The notes under the pieces: model-generated
Seen by the model: only the letters and a program-made list of their open reading frames with translations
Told to the model about the DNA's origin: nothing
Database searches by the model: none
Assembly: GCA_030692565.1 (NCBI GenBank)
Contig: JAUYAO010000058.1
Coordinates: forward strand, 186,001 to 250,000
Direction of reading: 5' to 3'
Source of the DNA: Nitrospira sp.
GTDB taxonomy: Bacteria > Nitrospirota > Nitrospiria > Nitrospirales > Nitrospiraceae
Length of the DNA stretch: 64,000 nucleotides
Made by a program: the position numbers and the translations under genes
Shown: one piece after another, positions 48,014 to 54,998 of the stretch
How the letters are laid out: every line of letters begins with the position of its first letter
Numbering within the stretch: the stretch's first letter is position 1

Positions 48014-48445
48014 TCACTCGGAATCGCCGACGGCGCTGACATCTCGCTCACCGAAGATCGCCGACTCGTGAGTGTAGTGTTTGAATTCGAGCAAATTACG
48101 CGACGGGTCTTCGAGAAAAAAGGTCCGATGCTCGATTCGCATACCGGGAAAGCGGACGCGCGGCTGTTGATAGAACGACAGGCCCTGCTGACGGGCTCGT
48201 TCGGCCAAGGCCTCCCAGTCTGATTGTTCGAGGAAGACCAGTCCGAAGTGACGCGGATAGATCCCTCGTTGAGAAGGTGGCGGTTCCGTCGTCAGATGGG
48301 CCACGAGTTGGTGCCCCGCGAGTCCGAACATGACGGCATGACTCGACTCCCGACCCAACGTACAACCAAGCCCATCGACATAGAAACGTTTTGCCGCCGC
48401 CACATCGTAATTCGGAAAGGCAAGATGGAAAAGAGTTTTCGACAT
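48014..48445 (-). CDS. VOC-family (glyoxalase/dioxygenase fold) protein
   Basis: The protein has 143 residues. The opening LFHLAFPNYDVAAAKRFYVDGLGCTLGRE, with HFGLVF in the middle and RTFFLEDPSRNLLEFKHY at the end, gives the paired beta-alpha-beta-beta-beta units and metal-ligand positions (His, His, Glu) of vicinal-oxygen-chelate enzymes. The substrate is unknown. A truncated copy of its first 33 codons lies 0.7 kb upstream (49054-49155). Confidence 0.85.
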   Translation of the reverse strand: MSKTLFHLAFPNYDVAAAKRFYVDGLGCTLGRESSHAVMFGLAGHQLVAHLTTEPPPSQRGIYPRHFGLVFLEQSDWEALAERARQQGLSFYQQPRVRFPGMRIEHRTFFLEDPSRNLLEFKHYTHESAIFGERDVSAVGDSE

Positions 48446-48594: not shown

Positions 48595-49015
48595 TTATGT
48601 GGAGAGCATCAGATTGCCACATAACTCGACGGTACCGTCTCGACGCACAAAGAATATGAGGAGCCCCAGCCCTACTAGAAGCTCCGTTAGAGCTTCGTCA
48701 AGATATGTTCGATAGTGCTCATTCTCCTGAAACGCAAGCCCATAAATATCCGTCCTGCCTTTCTTCTTGCTAACGCATAGACTCCTGAGTTGGTTGAACA
48801 CTGCAGGTGCCACCTTCTGGTAAATCTCGCCTTGCGTCCAAGCCTTAGTATATCCATCGCCTTTTGCTTCGATCCGTAACGTCCTCCCCTTGCAGGGAAC
48901 GGGCCACGATATCATCACCATGAGAGCTTCAAAGGGCTTGGCCAAGAATTTCAAACTTGTTCTTGCGTAGAAATTCGGCAATAAACTGATTCACTTTGTC
49001 CTCACGCAAGAACAT
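48595..49015 (-). pseudogene. Broken PD-(D/E)XK-type gene (in-frame stop plus frameshift)
   Basis: From the ATG at 49015 (GGAG upstream) the frame reads MFLREDKVNQFIAEFL and FEILGQAL, then hits TGA. The same frame continues SSHGDIVARSLQG, and then coding sense moves to another frame with GRTLRIEAKGDGYTKAWTQ, ending GTVELCGNLMLST. Joined, the order (helical start, 'HGxDIVA', 'LRIEAKG', then 'YQKVAPAVFNQL') is that of a restriction-endonuclease-fold protein family. Two lesions argue for decay unless they are sequencing errors. The intact C-terminal part could still be translated from an internal start at 48981. Confidence 0.65.
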
Positions 49016-49053: not shown

Positions 49054-49155
49054 CTACTGCGGCCTACCCGTACAGCCGAGTCCGTCCACGGAGAGTTTCT
49101 TTGTGGCCTCAAGATCGGTGACCGGAAAAGCGAGATGGAATAGTACGCGTAGCAT
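49054..49155 (-). pseudogene. Truncated copy of the VOC gene 5' end
   Basis: Minus-strand translation from the ATG at 49155 gives 33 residues including LFHLAFPVTDLEATKKL and SVDGLGCTGR before a stop. This aligns residue for residue with the start of the intact VOC protein at 48445 (LFHLAFPNYDVAAAKRF, YVDGLGCTLGR). Similarity ends abruptly at codon 31-32, so this is a fragment, not a diverged full gene. Confidence 0.8.
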
Positions 49156-49288: not shown

Positions 49289-50575
49289 CTACGCTGTGGT
49301 TCCGGTTAGTGCGTCTTTGCGTGTCGAAACATCAAGGGATGAATAGGGATAATTTCGATTGAGATTCTCGAGTTCTATCCTACACCTCTCGAATATTTCC
49401 CAGAGTCCCTTTGCCGCCTGTTCTCCAATTTGATGCTCTCCGCCGAGATGTTCGTTTATCAAATCCTTGACGCCTATTGTCTTTCTCCCCAGCAAGTCCC
49501 TCAGGTCAAAGTAGCCAATCCACCATGGGGATTTTCGAAGTCTCAGGTCATCTTTCTCTGAAAGCATTCGAAAAACCTCCTTGTCCGGCTCGGCCAGCTT
49601 ATCCTCCTGGATCTGAACGCCACGGTAAATACCAATAATTACTTCGTTCCAGCTGGAATCCTGAGTCTCGCATAACACAGCGAATTGCAACGAATTCTCT
49701 CTTCGGCCTCTCCATAGGATGCCAACTTTTGCGTACTTCCCAATATGAGTCGCGTCTAACACATCCCAATTGTCGCCCAGGTTGCTTTGATGCAGTCTGT
49801 TCTTGAGGTCTTTTTGAACCCGAACCAAGAACTGCCACTTCGCCTGATTTTTAATCTCTTCGACCGCCATTGAGATACGCTCGGAGGTCTCGAAGTTTCT
49901 AGGGTCTCGCAGCAACGCAATTATTTCCTGATTCATTGGCATATCTCTCCAAAGATTTACATACTGGCTCAGGACCACTTCCAAGCGAGGAGGAACCTTG
50001 TCTTTCAGCCTATCGAGCCAAGCTGCAATGTCCCCATAGGACACAAGTTTCACTTTTTTCACTTCAGCCGGGCTGCATGAAGATGGACGCCTTCCATTTG
50101 GTGTTAAGAAGACAAGATGGTGGGGTCTCCCTGATTTTGCATGAGGTTGGATCTGCAACCAACTTCGGTAGCGCTCAAGTTGCTCTTCTCCCTCAACAGC
50201 GTCTACTTTATTTTCGATAATGATTATCTGCTTGTCAGGCAAGGTCACCAGAATGTCCAACCGACCTTTCTCGATAGGAACTTCTGTTCTGACTTCTGAA
50301 CTCTCTAAATCGAGTCCTTCGGTCTCTTCCTGAATGACAACTCGGAGAAATGCCCGCAGAAAAAGATCCTCTTGGGCATGGATACCTTTGGGGTCAAGCA
50401 AGCACGCGAGAAACCGGGAATGTGCCAGCTCTGCACGTTCGACCCCGAGCGCGTTAAAGACATTGAACCGGCACGCAGTAATCTTGTCTCTTTCCTGTTC
50501 CTCGCGAAGTATCTCCCCCGCCTTTTCAAGTAGCTCCTGGGCCGCCTTGACTTGATCGTTCGAAGCCAGATCCAT
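49289..50575 (-). CDS. PD-(D/E)XK nuclease superfamily protein (PDDEXK_4-like)
   Basis: The protein has 428 residues from the ATG at 50575, preceded by AGAGGA. The N-terminal block FNVFNALGVERAELAHSRFLACLLDPKG and the nuclease core GRLDILVTLPDKQIIIIENKVDAVEGEEQLERYRSWL (about 105-145) contain Asp and E-x-K of the active site. The remainder is helical with a beta-rich end (GIYRGVQIQEDKLAEPD). Such proteins occur widely in defence islands, though activity is rarely tested. It is the last gene of a minus-strand row with an AAA+ ATPase and WYL regulator. GC content is lower than in the flanking core genes. Confidence 0.82.
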   Translation of the reverse strand: MDLASNDQVKAAQELLEKAGEILREEQERDKITACRFNVFNALGVERAELAHSRFLACLLDPKGIHAQEDLFLRAFLRVVIQEETEGLDLESSEVRTEVPIEKGRLDILVTLPDKQIIIIENKVDAVEGEEQLERYRSWLQIQPHAKSGRPHHLVFLTPNGRRPSSCSPAEVKKVKLVSYGDIAAWLDRLKDKVPPRLEVVLSQYVNLWRDMPMNQEIIALLRDPRNFETSERISMAVEEIKNQAKWQFLVRVQKDLKNRLHQSNLGDNWDVLDATHIGKYAKVGILWRGRRENSLQFAVLCETQDSSWNEVIIGIYRGVQIQEDKLAEPDKEVFRMLSEKDDLRLRKSPWWIGYFDLRDLLGRKTIGVKDLINEHLGGEHQIGEQAAKGLWEIFERCRIELENLNRNYPYSSLDVSTRKDALTGTTA

Positions 50576-50673
50576 TGTCAATCCTCTAGGTCAAAGCCTC
50601 CGCCACTGGTCCGTAATCTTGCGCCGCCTCAAAGCCGAATGTCCAGACAGCGCGCTCATGGTTACTGAAAATT

Positions 50674-51003
50674 CTAGCAAGGACTATCTTCCATAGTCCC
50701 AGACCGCACATCGAGTCCCAAAGCGGCACAGCCGTTCCTGAGATTCTTAAGTTGCTTGTGCATCTTTGCAAGAACCTGCCGGTCAGCGACTTCAACCCCG
50801 CACAGGACCCCGCAGAGGCAGTCGATGCGATAGATGTCAGCCCCGACGTGAGCGGTCCCGACGACGATTACCAGCAGGACGGGGCTCATCGCACTCGCCC
50901 GTCGGCGCTCTGCGACTCGGACAATGCCCCTGTCCACCTGCCGGCTGTCTTTCCGCAGCTCGGCGAGAAACTTGCTGGAATTTGCAAATTTGACTGTGGT
51001 CAT
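50674..51003 (-). CDS. Small protein linked to the AAA+ ATPase, possibly frameshifted
   Basis: The protein has 109 residues from the ATG at 51003, 38 nt after the ATPase stop. It begins VKFANSSKFLAELRKDSRQVDRGIVRVAERR, then PVLLVIVVGTAHVGADIYRIDCLCG and ALGLDVRSG before ending SPC. No family is known to me. A second frame beginning near the end (50586-50795) reads LARIFSNHERAVWTFGFE and DYGPVAEALT and stops 10 nt before the next gene, so the real C-terminus may be longer and separated by a frameshift. Confidence 0.55.
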   Translation of the reverse strand: MTTVKFANSSKFLAELRKDSRQVDRGIVRVAERRRASAMSPVLLVIVVGTAHVGADIYRIDCLCGVLCGVEVADRQVLAKMHKQLKNLRNGCAALGLDVRSGTMEDSPC

Positions 51004-51041
51004 CAAAGCGGCAGTTCCACCTCCAGTTCTGGTCTTCGCGG

Positions 51042-52319
51042 TTATCGGTCTCCATTGTTCGACTGGCAAAATCCGACGCTCTCTCGTTCATCCATTGATT
51101 CCCCTGGCTTCGAGGCCGATTTTCGCTGGATGCAAAGCGTTTCGACGCTTTTCAGAAGGGCCTCGTCTCCAGGCGTGTCGCCATTGTGCGCACTGGAGAG
51201 GAGCGCATTCACAACGATTTCCTGAACGTAGGCCATTGAGAAGTGCTCCGACTTGCGCGCCGCTTCTTCCATGGCCCCTTCGGAGAAAAACGTCCCGCCA
51301 CACTTCCGCAGGAGTGCAAGACGCTGCTCATAGCGAGGCAGGGGAAACTTCCAAATCCGGTCGAACCGGCTGGGCCGATGGAGCAAGGCCTGGTCCAACT
51401 TCTCAGGCGCATTTGAGGTCGCGATAATCAAGATGCCGGATGCCGGCTTCAGGACATCCACCGTTCGGAGGAAATGTGCCAGGGAACATTCGCGACTCTC
51501 AAGCAGCTTGTCCAAATCCTCGATGACGACCACCGCCGGTGCATGCATGACCGCCCAATCGAATGCCCGCTCCACGCACTGATCATCCACATCGGAACGT
51601 TGTATAACCGTGATGAACGTTGCTTTCACGTTGTTGGCCAGTGCGCTAATCGTCAGCGTTTTGCCGCATCCCGGAGGACCGACGAACAATAGCCCCCTCC
51701 TGAACGGCAGACCGAGCCTTCGATAGTTGTCCACTCCCGCGAAAAATCCCTCGACGTTGCCCCGGATCTCTTCCGCGAGTCCGCTCGGCAAGACCACCTC
51801 ATCCCACGAGACGGGCGGTTTGGGCAGATTCGGCCCGTTGACGACCAGAACCTCACGGTTGTCGTGTCGCTCTCGCATCAGCCCATACTCCTTCAGTCCG
51901 TGGAGGAGGTGTCGGAGTGCGGCGTTCGACCTTGTGGCGATAAGAGTGAGCGGTTCATGGGCTAGACACTGCTCCATAAATGGCGAGCAGAAATGGATTG
52001 CCGAGCCCTTCCATTCGATTTCAACGGACCCGATCCAGCCTTCGCTCTCAAGGTCTTTTTGAGTGTCCGATTTGGTGTCGAGTTCAATCGCTTGAGAGTT
52101 TCCTTCTACACCACGCAACTCCTGGACGGTTGGCTCTTTTCCAACGGCCGATGCTTTCAATGACTCAGGATGTTTGTCCTGCAGCCAATCCAAGAGATAG
52201 CGCAGAAAGAAACTGCGCACTAACGGCGTGCAACAGTGATAAATTTTCCAGCCGTCTTCGCGCGGATGAGAATTCATGAACGACTGAATTTGTTGGTTGA
52301 CGGATAAGAAACTCTGCAT
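51042..52319 (-). CDS. AAA+ ATPase (SpoVK-like) with an unknown N-terminal domain
   Basis: The protein has 425 residues from the ATG at 52319, behind GAGGAGG. Residues 1-190 are an N-terminal region of no recognised family. The AAA+ module (about 195-375) has Walker A VGPPGCGKTLTI, Walker B VVVIEDLDKLL, sensor 1 IIATSNAPEKL, and an arginine finger in RPSRFDRIW, followed by a C-terminal lid. It should form a hexameric remodelling ATPase. It lies between the WYL regulator and the small protein plus PD-(D/E)XK gene on the same strand, the pattern of a multi-gene defence operon; no function is demonstrated. Confidence 0.85.
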   Translation of the reverse strand: MQSFLSVNQQIQSFMNSHPREDGWKIYHCCTPLVRSFFLRYLLDWLQDKHPESLKASAVGKEPTVQELRGVEGNSQAIELDTKSDTQKDLESEGWIGSVEIEWKGSAIHFCSPFMEQCLAHEPLTLIATRSNAALRHLLHGLKEYGLMRERHDNREVLVVNGPNLPKPPVSWDEVVLPSGLAEEIRGNVEGFFAGVDNYRRLGLPFRRGLLFVGPPGCGKTLTISALANNVKATFITVIQRSDVDDQCVERAFDWAVMHAPAVVVIEDLDKLLESRECSLAHFLRTVDVLKPASGILIIATSNAPEKLDQALLHRPSRFDRIWKFPLPRYEQRLALLRKCGGTFFSEGAMEEAARKSEHFSMAYVQEIVVNALLSSAHNGDTPGDEALLKSVETLCIQRKSASKPGESMDERESVGFCQSNNGDR

Positions 52320-52396
52320 GGCTGTGCCTCCTCTATTCGTTGAGCGCAGCCTAGCATGGGGGTGCGACAGAATAAGTCGCTGGTCGCAGGAAAGCG

Positions 52397-53386
52397 CTAA
52401 CGGGAGGATTGATACGGCCTGGCGGCCAACGTCAGTTGGCTGGACACGTTGTCTATCAACGCTTGCGGACCGAGCACCCGAGCCCCTGGTCCGAAAGAAA
52501 GTACCCAGGCGGTCAGTTCGTCTATACCGCCGCACCGCATGGTCAGAATCACGGAGCCATCCTTCCGAGTCTGGAGGGTCTGAGTCGGATGCCAGCGTCG
52601 TTCTTTGACGAAATATGCCCAATCGGATGAGATCCAGATCTTCACTTCCTGCAGAGGGTCATCAATCAGGCCGAAACCGTGTTCAAATCGCTCCGCAAGA
52701 GAAAATGAGCCTGGAATTTCGAACATATCCTCCGCAAGTTCGACCCCTTTGACCCTCTCCACCGCGAAAGTCCTAATATCTTTTGCCTTATGCGAATAGC
52801 CGACCAGATACAGACCATACTGGTACAGAACCAGCCCGTAGGGATCAACTCGATAGTCGTTCGGATGCCCGGCGCCCGGTTTCTGATAGCCCCGCAGCAC
52901 CACTGTGTGCTGGCGGAGCAACGCTTTACGCAAGGGATCGAGAATGCTTTTTTTCTCGGCATAGGCACGGGCTGGCCGTTGAAGTGGAGCAAAGGAGGTG
53001 ACAATCCGCTCGATATGGTTTTTTACCCTGTCGGGAAGTCCCGCTTCCACTTTGTGAAGGACGGTTTCCAAATCGTCGAGCAATGGTGTGCCCTTCAAAT
53101 AATCCAAATGGCTCTTGGCAAGGTAGAGCGACATCAACTCGTAAGGGGACACCACGATCTCCGTCCCCTTGAAGCCATGCGGCAGCTTATATATGCCGTC
53201 TTCCTGGACAAGGGGATATCCCGATTCTTCGAGATGTTGAAGATCCCGGTGCACCTGCCGCTTGGTGATTTGAAACTCCTCAGCCAACTCCACAACCGTT
53301 GCTCCCCTCGTGAGCCGCCTCGCCATGAGGCTGACACGTGCGGCTTGGCTGTAGGGTTTGGGCTTGCGCCCTTTACGGCTGGGCAT
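52397..53386 (-). CDS. HTH-WYL transcriptional regulator
   Basis: The protein has 329 residues from the ATG at 53386 (a TTG at 53407 is possible). The N-terminus is basic (PSRKGRKPKPYS). The winged HTH follows (ATVVELAEEFQITKRQVHRDLQHLEESGYPL), then the WYL domain (about 150-235; HTVVLRGYQKPG, DYRVDPYGLVLYQYGLYLVGYS) and a C-terminal WCX-like segment (DWAYFVKERRWHPTQTLQ). WYL proteins sense nucleotide-type ligands and frequently repress defence operons (BrxR, CapW). It is upstream of the AAA+ gene by 77 nt, so control of that cassette is likely. Confidence 0.85.
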   Translation of the reverse strand: MPSRKGRKPKPYSQAARVSLMARRLTRGATVVELAEEFQITKRQVHRDLQHLEESGYPLVQEDGIYKLPHGFKGTEIVVSPYELMSLYLAKSHLDYLKGTPLLDDLETVLHKVEAGLPDRVKNHIERIVTSFAPLQRPARAYAEKKSILDPLRKALLRQHTVVLRGYQKPGAGHPNDYRVDPYGLVLYQYGLYLVGYSHKAKDIRTFAVERVKGVELAEDMFEIPGSFSLAERFEHGFGLIDDPLQEVKIWISSDWAYFVKERRWHPTQTLQTRKDGSVILTMRCGGIDELTAWVLSFGPGARVLGPQALIDNVSSQLTLAARPYQSSR

Positions 53387-53403: not shown

Positions 53404-54342
53404 TCAACGTTCAAACTTGTCCTTGACGACCGGTTCGCCCTTCCCATCCCACCAACCGGCAGCCATGCGCGGGGTGACATGGGTGATGGCGAATCGCCCG
53501 TTTGGAGCCAGTACGAGGGAGCCGGCGGCACCGTTGATCCGTCGAACCAGTTTCTGCAAGACATGCGTCGCCGCCGAGGCCGGGCGCTCGCCCCGCTCCA
53601 GGCGGTCACAGATTTCTTTCGCCACGGCGATGCGGATAATCCCCTCGCCCAACCCGGTCATGGATACGGCGCCGCTCTCGTTGTCGGCATAGACCCCGCA
53701 GCCGATGATCGGCGTGTCGCCGACACGGCCCGGCAACATCAGGTCGATTCCGCCGGTCGAGGCCCCGGCCGCGACCGTCCCGGTGTGATCGAGCGCCGCC
53801 GCACCGACGGTTTCCTTCCCGGCTCGCTTCCGCAATGCCGGCCCGCTCGACATCATCGCCCGATAGAGTTCCAACGTTTTTGGAGACCACGCCCGCGTCA
53901 TCGTCGCTTTGCGAACGGCATGACCCGAAGGCCGAATCGGCTGCCGCTCCAACTTGCAATGCCGGGCAAAGGCCGACGCCGGCTTCCCGACCAGCAAGAC
54001 GTGCGTCGTCTGCTCCATCACCAACCGCGCCGCTGAAATGGGATGGACGATGCCTTCGACCGATGCGACGGCTCCGGCCTGCAAATCCTGCCCTTCCATG
54101 ATCGACGCATCCATACGGCGCACCCCGTCCAGTTGCACATGCGCGCCGCGGCCCGCATTGAACAATCCGCTCTGCTCCAACACACAAATGACCTGCTCGA
54201 CAGCGGTCAGTGCCGGGGCGCCGCGATCCAGAAGATGATAGCCGATTTCCAATGCCGCCTTGAGACAACCAGCCTGAGCTGACGTCATGCGACGAAGACC
54301 GGCACCGCCATGGACGAGGAGAACGGGATGGACAGATTTCAA
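53404..54342 (-). CDS. Isoaspartyl peptidase / L-asparaginase (Ntn hydrolase)
   Basis: The protein has 312 residues if it begins at the TTG at 54342, which overlaps the upstream stop (TTGA). The N-terminus VHPVLLVHGGAG is that of the family. NAGRGAHVQLDG and MEGQDLQAGAVASV follow, and the autocatalytic Thr is in KETVGAAALD, with AAGASTGG completing the pocket. It is made as a precursor that cleaves itself before that Thr and removes isoaspartyl residues or hydrolyses asparagine. It is coupled to the upstream hypothetical gene. Confidence 0.88.
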   Translation of the reverse strand: MKSVHPVLLVHGGAGLRRMTSAQAGCLKAALEIGYHLLDRGAPALTAVEQVICVLEQSGLFNAGRGAHVQLDGVRRMDASIMEGQDLQAGAVASVEGIVHPISAARLVMEQTTHVLLVGKPASAFARHCKLERQPIRPSGHAVRKATMTRAWSPKTLELYRAMMSSGPALRKRAGKETVGAAALDHTGTVAAGASTGGIDLMLPGRVGDTPIIGCGVYADNESGAVSMTGLGEGIIRIAVAKEICDRLERGERPASAATHVLQKLVRRINGAAGSLVLAPNGRFAITHVTPRMAAGWWDGKGEPVVKDKFER

Positions 54343-54998
54343 TTGAGCAACAGGCCCTTCACACGCTGGTAGGCAGGATCGCTCATGCGATCGAGATCGG
54401 AGCGGACAAATCCCAGCCCGGTGACACAAAGCTCGAAGTTATCGGAGAGCTTCCGGAACAGCGGAGGATCGGCCTCGGCGCCATGCTCGCCGAATTCGGC
54501 CACGATGCCGTACGAGCGCTTGCCGGTTTTCATGTACTCCACGAGAAAATCCTTATGATAGATCAATCCGGCTGTTTTCAATCGCCGCAAGTATTCCGGA
54601 AAGAGCCCGGCCATAAACAACGTGAAGTCCCCGATATGCCGGTGCACGTCCCGCTGACGTTCGAAGGATTGCGCATCCAGCATCACCTCGGACTCGAACA
54701 ACAAATCCACCACCGTGTCGACGGGCTGATCCTGTCTGGTGCGAATCTTATACAACTGGTCGGTGTGGGTAAAGTCGACGAGAAGATTGGACACATAACC
54801 CGCCACATTGAGATCGGGCCACCCGAGATGCTCGGTGAAACTCCGTTCGGTCAGAGCGCCGAACAGCTGCCGGAGGGGATGTTGTGGAGGAACTGCCGTC
54901 CCCATCTCCACCTCATCGAGTAAACGACATACGTCTATGCTGAGTATAGCAGACTCGCCGTGACCCGGATCGCCAGACGTCTCTTCTATCGGTTCCAC
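54339..54998 (-). CDS. Conserved hypothetical protein, unknown function
   Basis: The protein has 219 residues; the first 20-30 may be untranslated, and MGTAVPP at 54905 is an alternative start. The sequence is helical and charged (HPLRQLFGALTERSFTEHLGWPD, FERQRDVHRHIGDFTLFMAGLFPEYLRRLK, RSYGIVAEFGEHG, FELCVTGLGFVRSDLDRM). I recognise no catalytic motif. It overlaps the isoaspartyl peptidase start by 4 nt, which indicates cotranslation. Confidence 0.65.
   Translation of the reverse strand: MEPIEETSGDPGHGESAILSIDVCRLLDEVEMGTAVPPQHPLRQLFGALTERSFTEHLGWPDLNVAGYVSNLLVDFTHTDQLYKIRTRQDQPVDTVVDLLFESEVMLDAQSFERQRDVHRHIGDFTLFMAGLFPEYLRRLKTAGLIYHKDFLVEYMKTGKRSYGIVAEFGEHGAEADPPLFRKLSDNFELCVTGLGFVRSDLDRMSDPAYQRVKGLLLN

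Follow-up and report, generated by a model that had tools for sequence, protein, structure and literature searches.

Gene content of the locus

The window analysed here is a stretch of 64,000 nucleotides of Nitrospira sp. DNA, and within it lie four open reading frames that, as an earlier reading made from the sequence alone had described, are co-directional on the minus strand; open reading frame analysis and the Pfam domains confirm this. The first encodes a transcription regulator (52397..53386) whose wHTH, WYL and WCX domains extend across the full length of the protein, the second an AAA+ ATPase of 425 residues (51042..52319), the third a small protein of 109 residues (50674..51003) and the fourth a PDDEXK_4 nuclease-fold protein (49289..50575). 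Pfam E-values are 2.9e-18 for the WYL domain, 1.2e-16 for WCX, 8.4e-21 for AAA and 2.2e-28 for PDDEXK_4. Between the regulator and ATPase genes, on the same strand, are a dyad with a 7-bp spacer, referred to below as the WYL box (GCGACTTATTCTGTCGC, 52364..52380) and recognised by motif comparison across loci, and an extended -10 element (TGCTAGGCT, 52348..52356).

The left flank is an isoaspartyl peptidase/asparaginase gene (Asparaginase_2; 53438..54363), assigned by Pfam and by comparison of the junctions, and the right flank a glyoxalase-family gene (48014..48445), both again on the minus strand. The GC content of the block (48-57%) is, as previously noticed, lower than that of its flanks (58-64%), and the decaying genes that had been suspected at its edge can be specified: they are a truncated, decayed second start of a glyoxalase gene (49054..49155, minus strand) and a broken open reading frame (about 48595..49015, minus strand), the frame of which is interrupted near 48930. 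The latter gives no match in a Pfam scan, includes an E-x-K-like motif (RIEAKGD) and is probably older cargo.

The insertion site and its occupants

In relatives that lack the block, the asparaginase and glyoxalase genes lie head to tail with overlapping stop and start codons (ATGA). A comparison of close genomes for presence or absence of the block, as the sequence-only reading had suggested, was made using the 57 same-genus genomes that have both of these genes on one contig; the two are adjacent, i.e. the site is empty, in 47, while nine carry an insert of 3.3-6.4 kb (in a tenth genome a run of N mimics a gap, and this was not counted as an insert). The nearest genome, G128, a sister of the present one, is about 98% identical on both sides of the site and lacks the cassette. 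Relative to G128 the foreign tract runs on the minus strand from 53437 to 48269 and reaches into both flanking genes, comprising the end of the asparaginase gene (of which the last 33 bp or so are foreign), the cassette itself, and some 178 bp from the start of the glyoxalase gene, which is thus a mosaic, the rest of it being about 98% like G128. The block is a mobile insertion at one fixed chromosomal site.

The window block yielded no recognisable recombinase gene, so the cassette is likely to have entered by homologous recombination via its flanks. The glyoxalase-start remnant at 49155-49054, which is 62-67% identical over about 30 residues to the N-termini of glyoxalases (E as low as 5e-12), is a scar of cassette exchange; further scars are the broken frame at about 49015-48595 and, in genome G132, a second AAA fragment that is C-terminal. 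In two WYL-AAA loci, transposase-like genes have inserted within the locus, either separating WYL from AAA or lying between AAA and the cargo (L031, 5513-6690; L036, 7466-10559).

All nine inserts at the asparaginase/glyoxalase site begin with the WYL gene followed by the AAA gene. This bears directly on the view that the block is a chance neighbourhood of unrelated accessory genes, a view to which the confinement of the small protein to one genome lends something. A two-gene core found at the same site, with both flanks, in nine same-genus genomes speaks strongly against it, as do the recurrence of that core at a paralogous locus in the same genome and the sharing of a contig by WYL and AAA genes in two distant families; for WYL-AAA a chance association is already contradicted, and for the block overall we regard it as scarcely credible.

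A conserved core with exchangeable cargo

At this site the WYL proteins are 67-78% identical to that of the window and the AAA proteins 46-61%. What follows the AAA gene varies by species: it may be PDDEXK_4, a UDG-like gene together with PDDEXK_4, either of two kinds of GmrSD-type gene, a UDG/DUF6942-like gene, or a member of a family of 206-211 residues. In terms of profile families the cargo comprises GmrSD (HEC-05 and Orf5/HEC-06), PDC-S26 and UDG/DUF6942, and its content is of defence type. In two pairs of loci (L032/L036 and L029/L030) the cargo is unrelated despite AAA proteins that are 93-94% identical. WYL and AAA therefore form a conserved core, downstream of which genes are swapped among species.

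The four genes of the window are accordingly one version of a modular locus and no fixed four-gene system. The proposal of a candidate defence cassette stands insofar as there is a cassette, horizontally moved and with defence-like content, and fails as regards the exact set of four as a unit, the unit being WYL plus AAA, with a small protein peculiar to this genome and an exchangeable PDDEXK component. Conservation of gene order in other genomes is found for WYL-AAA and also for WYL-AAA-PDDEXK_4, the nuclease gene occurring at the locus at more than 50% identity in three genomes. An AAA homologue and a WYL gene also share a contig, about 2-10 kb apart, in two of the phylum's distant families; beyond the order, few genomes support the linkage. 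Beside AAA homologues of distant families there are small proteins that have Tat-like leaders (L169, 8535-9050; L170, 5221-5802), and the bodies of these proteins have no match among the loci compared.

The PDDEXK_4 protein, the present effector cargo, matches the PADLOC profile PDC-S26 over residues 12-362 (E=3.3e-55). Its predicted active-site Asp and E-x-K, previously described as intact, are indeed so, D107, E121 and K123 (the last two within E121-N-K123) being invariant in five homologues. Among the 236 genomes of the order, the gene is present at >50% identity in three, and every copy is at this same locus, behind AAA.

Whether the 109-residue protein co-occurs with its neighbours in unrelated genomes had been raised as a question; of the 236 genomes it is present in its own only, at both of the WYL-AAA loci there. 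The homologue at the second locus (32-33% identity), which is preceded by its own WYL box, rules out a spurious open reading frame. Neither a scan of IMG/VR nor a search of plasmids yielded any relative.

The AAA+ ATPase

An alignment of 14 AAA homologues shows that Walker A, the ED pair, the sensor-1 Asn and the arginine finger (SRFDR) are all invariant. The N-terminal domain for which a length of 190 residues had been given does exist as a region and is conserved within the family in the full-length alignment; its size is nearer 165 residues, and from about residue 103 onward it aligns with distant homologues. A single-sequence AlphaFold prediction of the protein had a mean pLDDT of 38 and was unusable. 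Searches with the AAA protein gave merely generic AAA proteins in IMG/VR, AAA-module matches with none spanning 80% among plasmids, and one AAA-domain match (30%) in a scan of genome contigs.

The closest solved structure with a single module is YjoB, a Bacillus AAA+ protein (PDB 7w42) of about the same length that likewise has one C-terminal AAA module, but the similarity is limited to that module and the genomic context is unrelated. Assignment as IetA, the ATPase of the IetAS anti-phage system, was considered and rejected: the PADLOC IetA match is weak (3.4e-15, 46.3 bits, compared with an NCBIfam cut-off of 510), and the subtilisin-like partner IetS is absent, a Pfam scan of the genes of the window block having revealed no protease family.

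As to what the ATPase does, it may load, remodel or control the effector, in a form of AAA-nuclease cooperation. PADLOC, however, also lists the nuclease families as single-gene candidates, so AAA and effector might share a locus yet be independent of each other. In that case the restriction-like enzymes would stand alone, nesting in a permissive WYL-regulated locus, and the AAA protein would be a separate chaperone or remodeler that does not cooperate with the nuclease. The listing of PDC-S26, HEC-05 and HEC-06 by PADLOC as candidates in their own right suits this explanation, as do the change of effectors while AAA remains 93-94% identical and the position of YjoB as nearest single-module solved relative; against it, each AAA locus at the site has a single promoter box, such that AAA and cargo appear to be co-expressed, and within the order the PDDEXK gene is found exclusively behind AAA. 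We consider it possible, though doubtful.

The regulator and its operator

Among solved structures the WYL protein is closest to chains of DriD (9pfq/8tp8), with E-values of about 1.6e-16 to 1.7e-16 and residues 27-324 aligned. The WYL and AAA genes are separated by a gap of nearly constant length (77 bp in the window, 76-79 bp at most loci), within which lies the dyad GYGAC-N7-GTCRC, which also precedes DnaG-like genes at related loci (see below) and some internal cargo genes. In the window the dyad (52380-52364) is perfect, its arms deviating from the usual GTGAC/GTCAC by matched changes on the two sides.

This pattern was derived from the WYL loci themselves, and hence was tested genome-wide. 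Across 175 genomes of the family the pattern has 93 exact matches, of which 41 fall within 6.5 kb of genes of this WYL family, where about 0.24 would be expected; all 41 are on the WYL strand, and 40 of them are downstream of the WYL gene. The present genome (4.17 Mb) contains three exact matches in total, all at its two WYL-AAA loci. Of the operator-like matches remote from WYL genes, at least one that recurs falls within the rpoA coding sequence and was discounted. Positions downstream of the dyad lay outside the search pattern, and at 40 of 48 sites they contain TAnnnT exactly 10 bp past the dyad (in extended form, TGnTAnnnT), as does the window. There is no -35 box: given a 17-bp spacer the -35 hexamer coincides with the centre of the dyad, which is unlike TTGACA. 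Two outlying cases may be mentioned, namely a locus of another genus in which the WYL box upstream of AAA is degenerate or differently placed (L035, near 5804), and one of a distant family in which an exact dyad lies some 60 bp upstream of the AAA gene with no fixed -10 (L093, 2411-2427).

DriD, from Caulobacter, is a wHTH-WYL-WCX protein; SiwR and PafBC are other WYL activators. Its operator, ATACGAC(X)7GTCGTAT, is centred on a poor -35 at a constant distance from the -10, with G-14 conserved (PMC12340889), so that both systems have a GAC-N7-GTC dyad over a missing -35 and a fixed distance to an extended -10 that includes G-14. DriD activates transcription after binding ssDNA, its targets, in an SOS-independent damage regulon, including the endonuclease gene bapE, recJ and dnaG (PMC12340889), and ssDNA is the activating signal for both DriD and PafBC (PMC12340889, PMC11804915). 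Since half-site, 7-bp spacer and placement are as in the DriD operator, and DriD is the nearest solved relative, activation by ssDNA would be expected here too. By this analogy the WYL protein is more likely to be a damage- or infection-triggered activator than a repressor, with ssDNA as its putative trigger. It must be remembered that, in contrast to DriD, the present regulator lies within a mobile cassette and would control adjacent AAA and nuclease genes, and that it is only distantly similar to DriD in sequence, ssDNA binding being proposed by analogy.

WYL repressors of defence systems are established (PMC9122601, PMC9122588), and the sequence-only reading had cast the regulator as one of these, akin to BrxR or CapW. 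Those regulators are, like the present one, encoded beside defence genes. A repressor of that type would silence a toxic cassette until repression is relieved by a nucleotide ligand, and what speaks for it, besides precedent, is that polymerase could be obstructed by a dyad lying at the -35; a WYL site placed there might equally serve a repressor. However, CapW palindromes overlap the -10 (PMC9122588) and the BrxR site, located downstream of the -10, consists of 11-bp repeats separated by 5 bp (PMC9122601), whereas the present dyad stops 10 bp upstream of that element. There is moreover no -35 to block, the spacer and half-site agree with the DriD operator, and the arrangement of regulator, short palindrome-bearing gap and target is shared by SiwR, a WYL activator (PMC10693628); nor does the locus contain BREX or CBASS genes. 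The operator geometry is thus that of the activators DriD and SiwR, and repression of this kind seems unlikely.

Related WYL loci

WYL proteins of 45-54% identity usually precede, instead of AAA, a DnaG-like protein with a CHC2 zinc finger, DNAG_N, a degenerate Toprim domain and a Tat-like leader. Loci of this type often continue with a protein of about 79 residues and then variable genes, some of them of nuclease families (Mrr_cat, NOV_C, DUF2779, PDDEXK_4). Nearly all the DnaG-like proteins of loci L041-L054, L056 and L058 open with a Tat-type leader ([ST]RRxxFK and a hydrophobic stretch), and export would be most unexpected for a primase-like protein. Some loci contain two or three DnaG-like genes, and each of these copies lies close to a WYL box.

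The second locus of the present genome (L025, contig C24:22000-36000) mixes both kinds, with WYL, AAA split into two open reading frames, a protein of about 99 residues, a UDG-like protein, a small protein and a DnaG-like fragment, the last behind a near-match to the WYL box. A third WYL family, about 32% identical, is found on contig C43 of the same genome and in relatives (L199-L201), where the genes behind it encode a VWA-like protein and a short protein with NPF repeats; in the relatives the same box occurs just downstream of the WYL gene, and in the present genome a Cas3-like open reading frame is nearby.

A proposed mechanism

Taken together, we judge the block to be, on balance probably, an inducible, modular, DNA-targeting defence-like locus at a fixed site. 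A DriD-type WYL homodimer would be made along with the upstream operon and remain idle until its WYL domains bind ssDNA arising from phage replication or DNA damage. Thus activated, the dimer would bind its box, GYGAC-N7-GTCRC, where the -35 would lie in a promoter having only an extended -10, and recruit RNA polymerase; AAA, small protein and nuclease would be produced, and the nuclease would attack DNA. The AAA+ ring would be the constant part and the DNA-acting effector (here PDDEXK_4) the variable one, new effectors being acquired by homologous recombination with AAA or asparaginase as one arm and the glyoxalase start as the other. A point against this picture is that some loci have a DnaG-like gene in place of AAA behind WYL.

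An anti-phage purpose is suggested by the cargo and its turnover. The same machinery could instead be a DNA-damage or programmed-death module, in which ssDNA from damage turns on the nuclease much as DriD turns on BapE in Caulobacter. The control of bapE, recJ and dnaG by DriD (PMC12340889) would fit such a role, as would the DnaG-like protein behind the same box in the sister loci, but presence/absence polymorphism, rapid exchange of cargo and its restriction-type character better fit defence than core repair, and we think this alternative rather unlikely.

A more far-reaching version of the favoured, defence-like reading, which we advance only tentatively, is that an ssDNA-triggered activator arms a universal AAA+ ring (in sister loci, a DnaG-like protein with a Tat-like leader), which would cooperate with any nuclease or glycosylase effector that happens to occupy the final position, the whole forming a transcriptionally gated immune chassis with plug-in effectors, exchanged by recombination at a fixed site.

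Significance

Each part of the locus belongs to a known family; what appears to be new is the combination of a DriD-type operator, an AAA or DnaG-like second gene, exchangeable DNA-acting effectors and a fixed site. No named system with the present gene set, nor any combining such an operator and second gene with swappable effectors, was found in the PADLOC profiles or the literature searched, in keeping with the initial impression; PDC-S26 and HEC-05/HEC-06, to whose profile families the effector genes belong, are separate defence candidates in PADLOC, whereas here they are linked to WYL and AAA.

The best-known WYL regulators of defence, BrxR and CapW, are repressors, while the known WYL activators act in DNA damage responses. 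A DriD-type activator in a mobile effector cassette would, if the proposal is correct, join these two roles, and would imply a simple rule of inducible immunity in which ssDNA derived from an invader switches on enzymes that attack DNA. The operator is specific enough to serve as a search tag, and its occurrence near WYL genes flags further uncharacterised effector cassettes.
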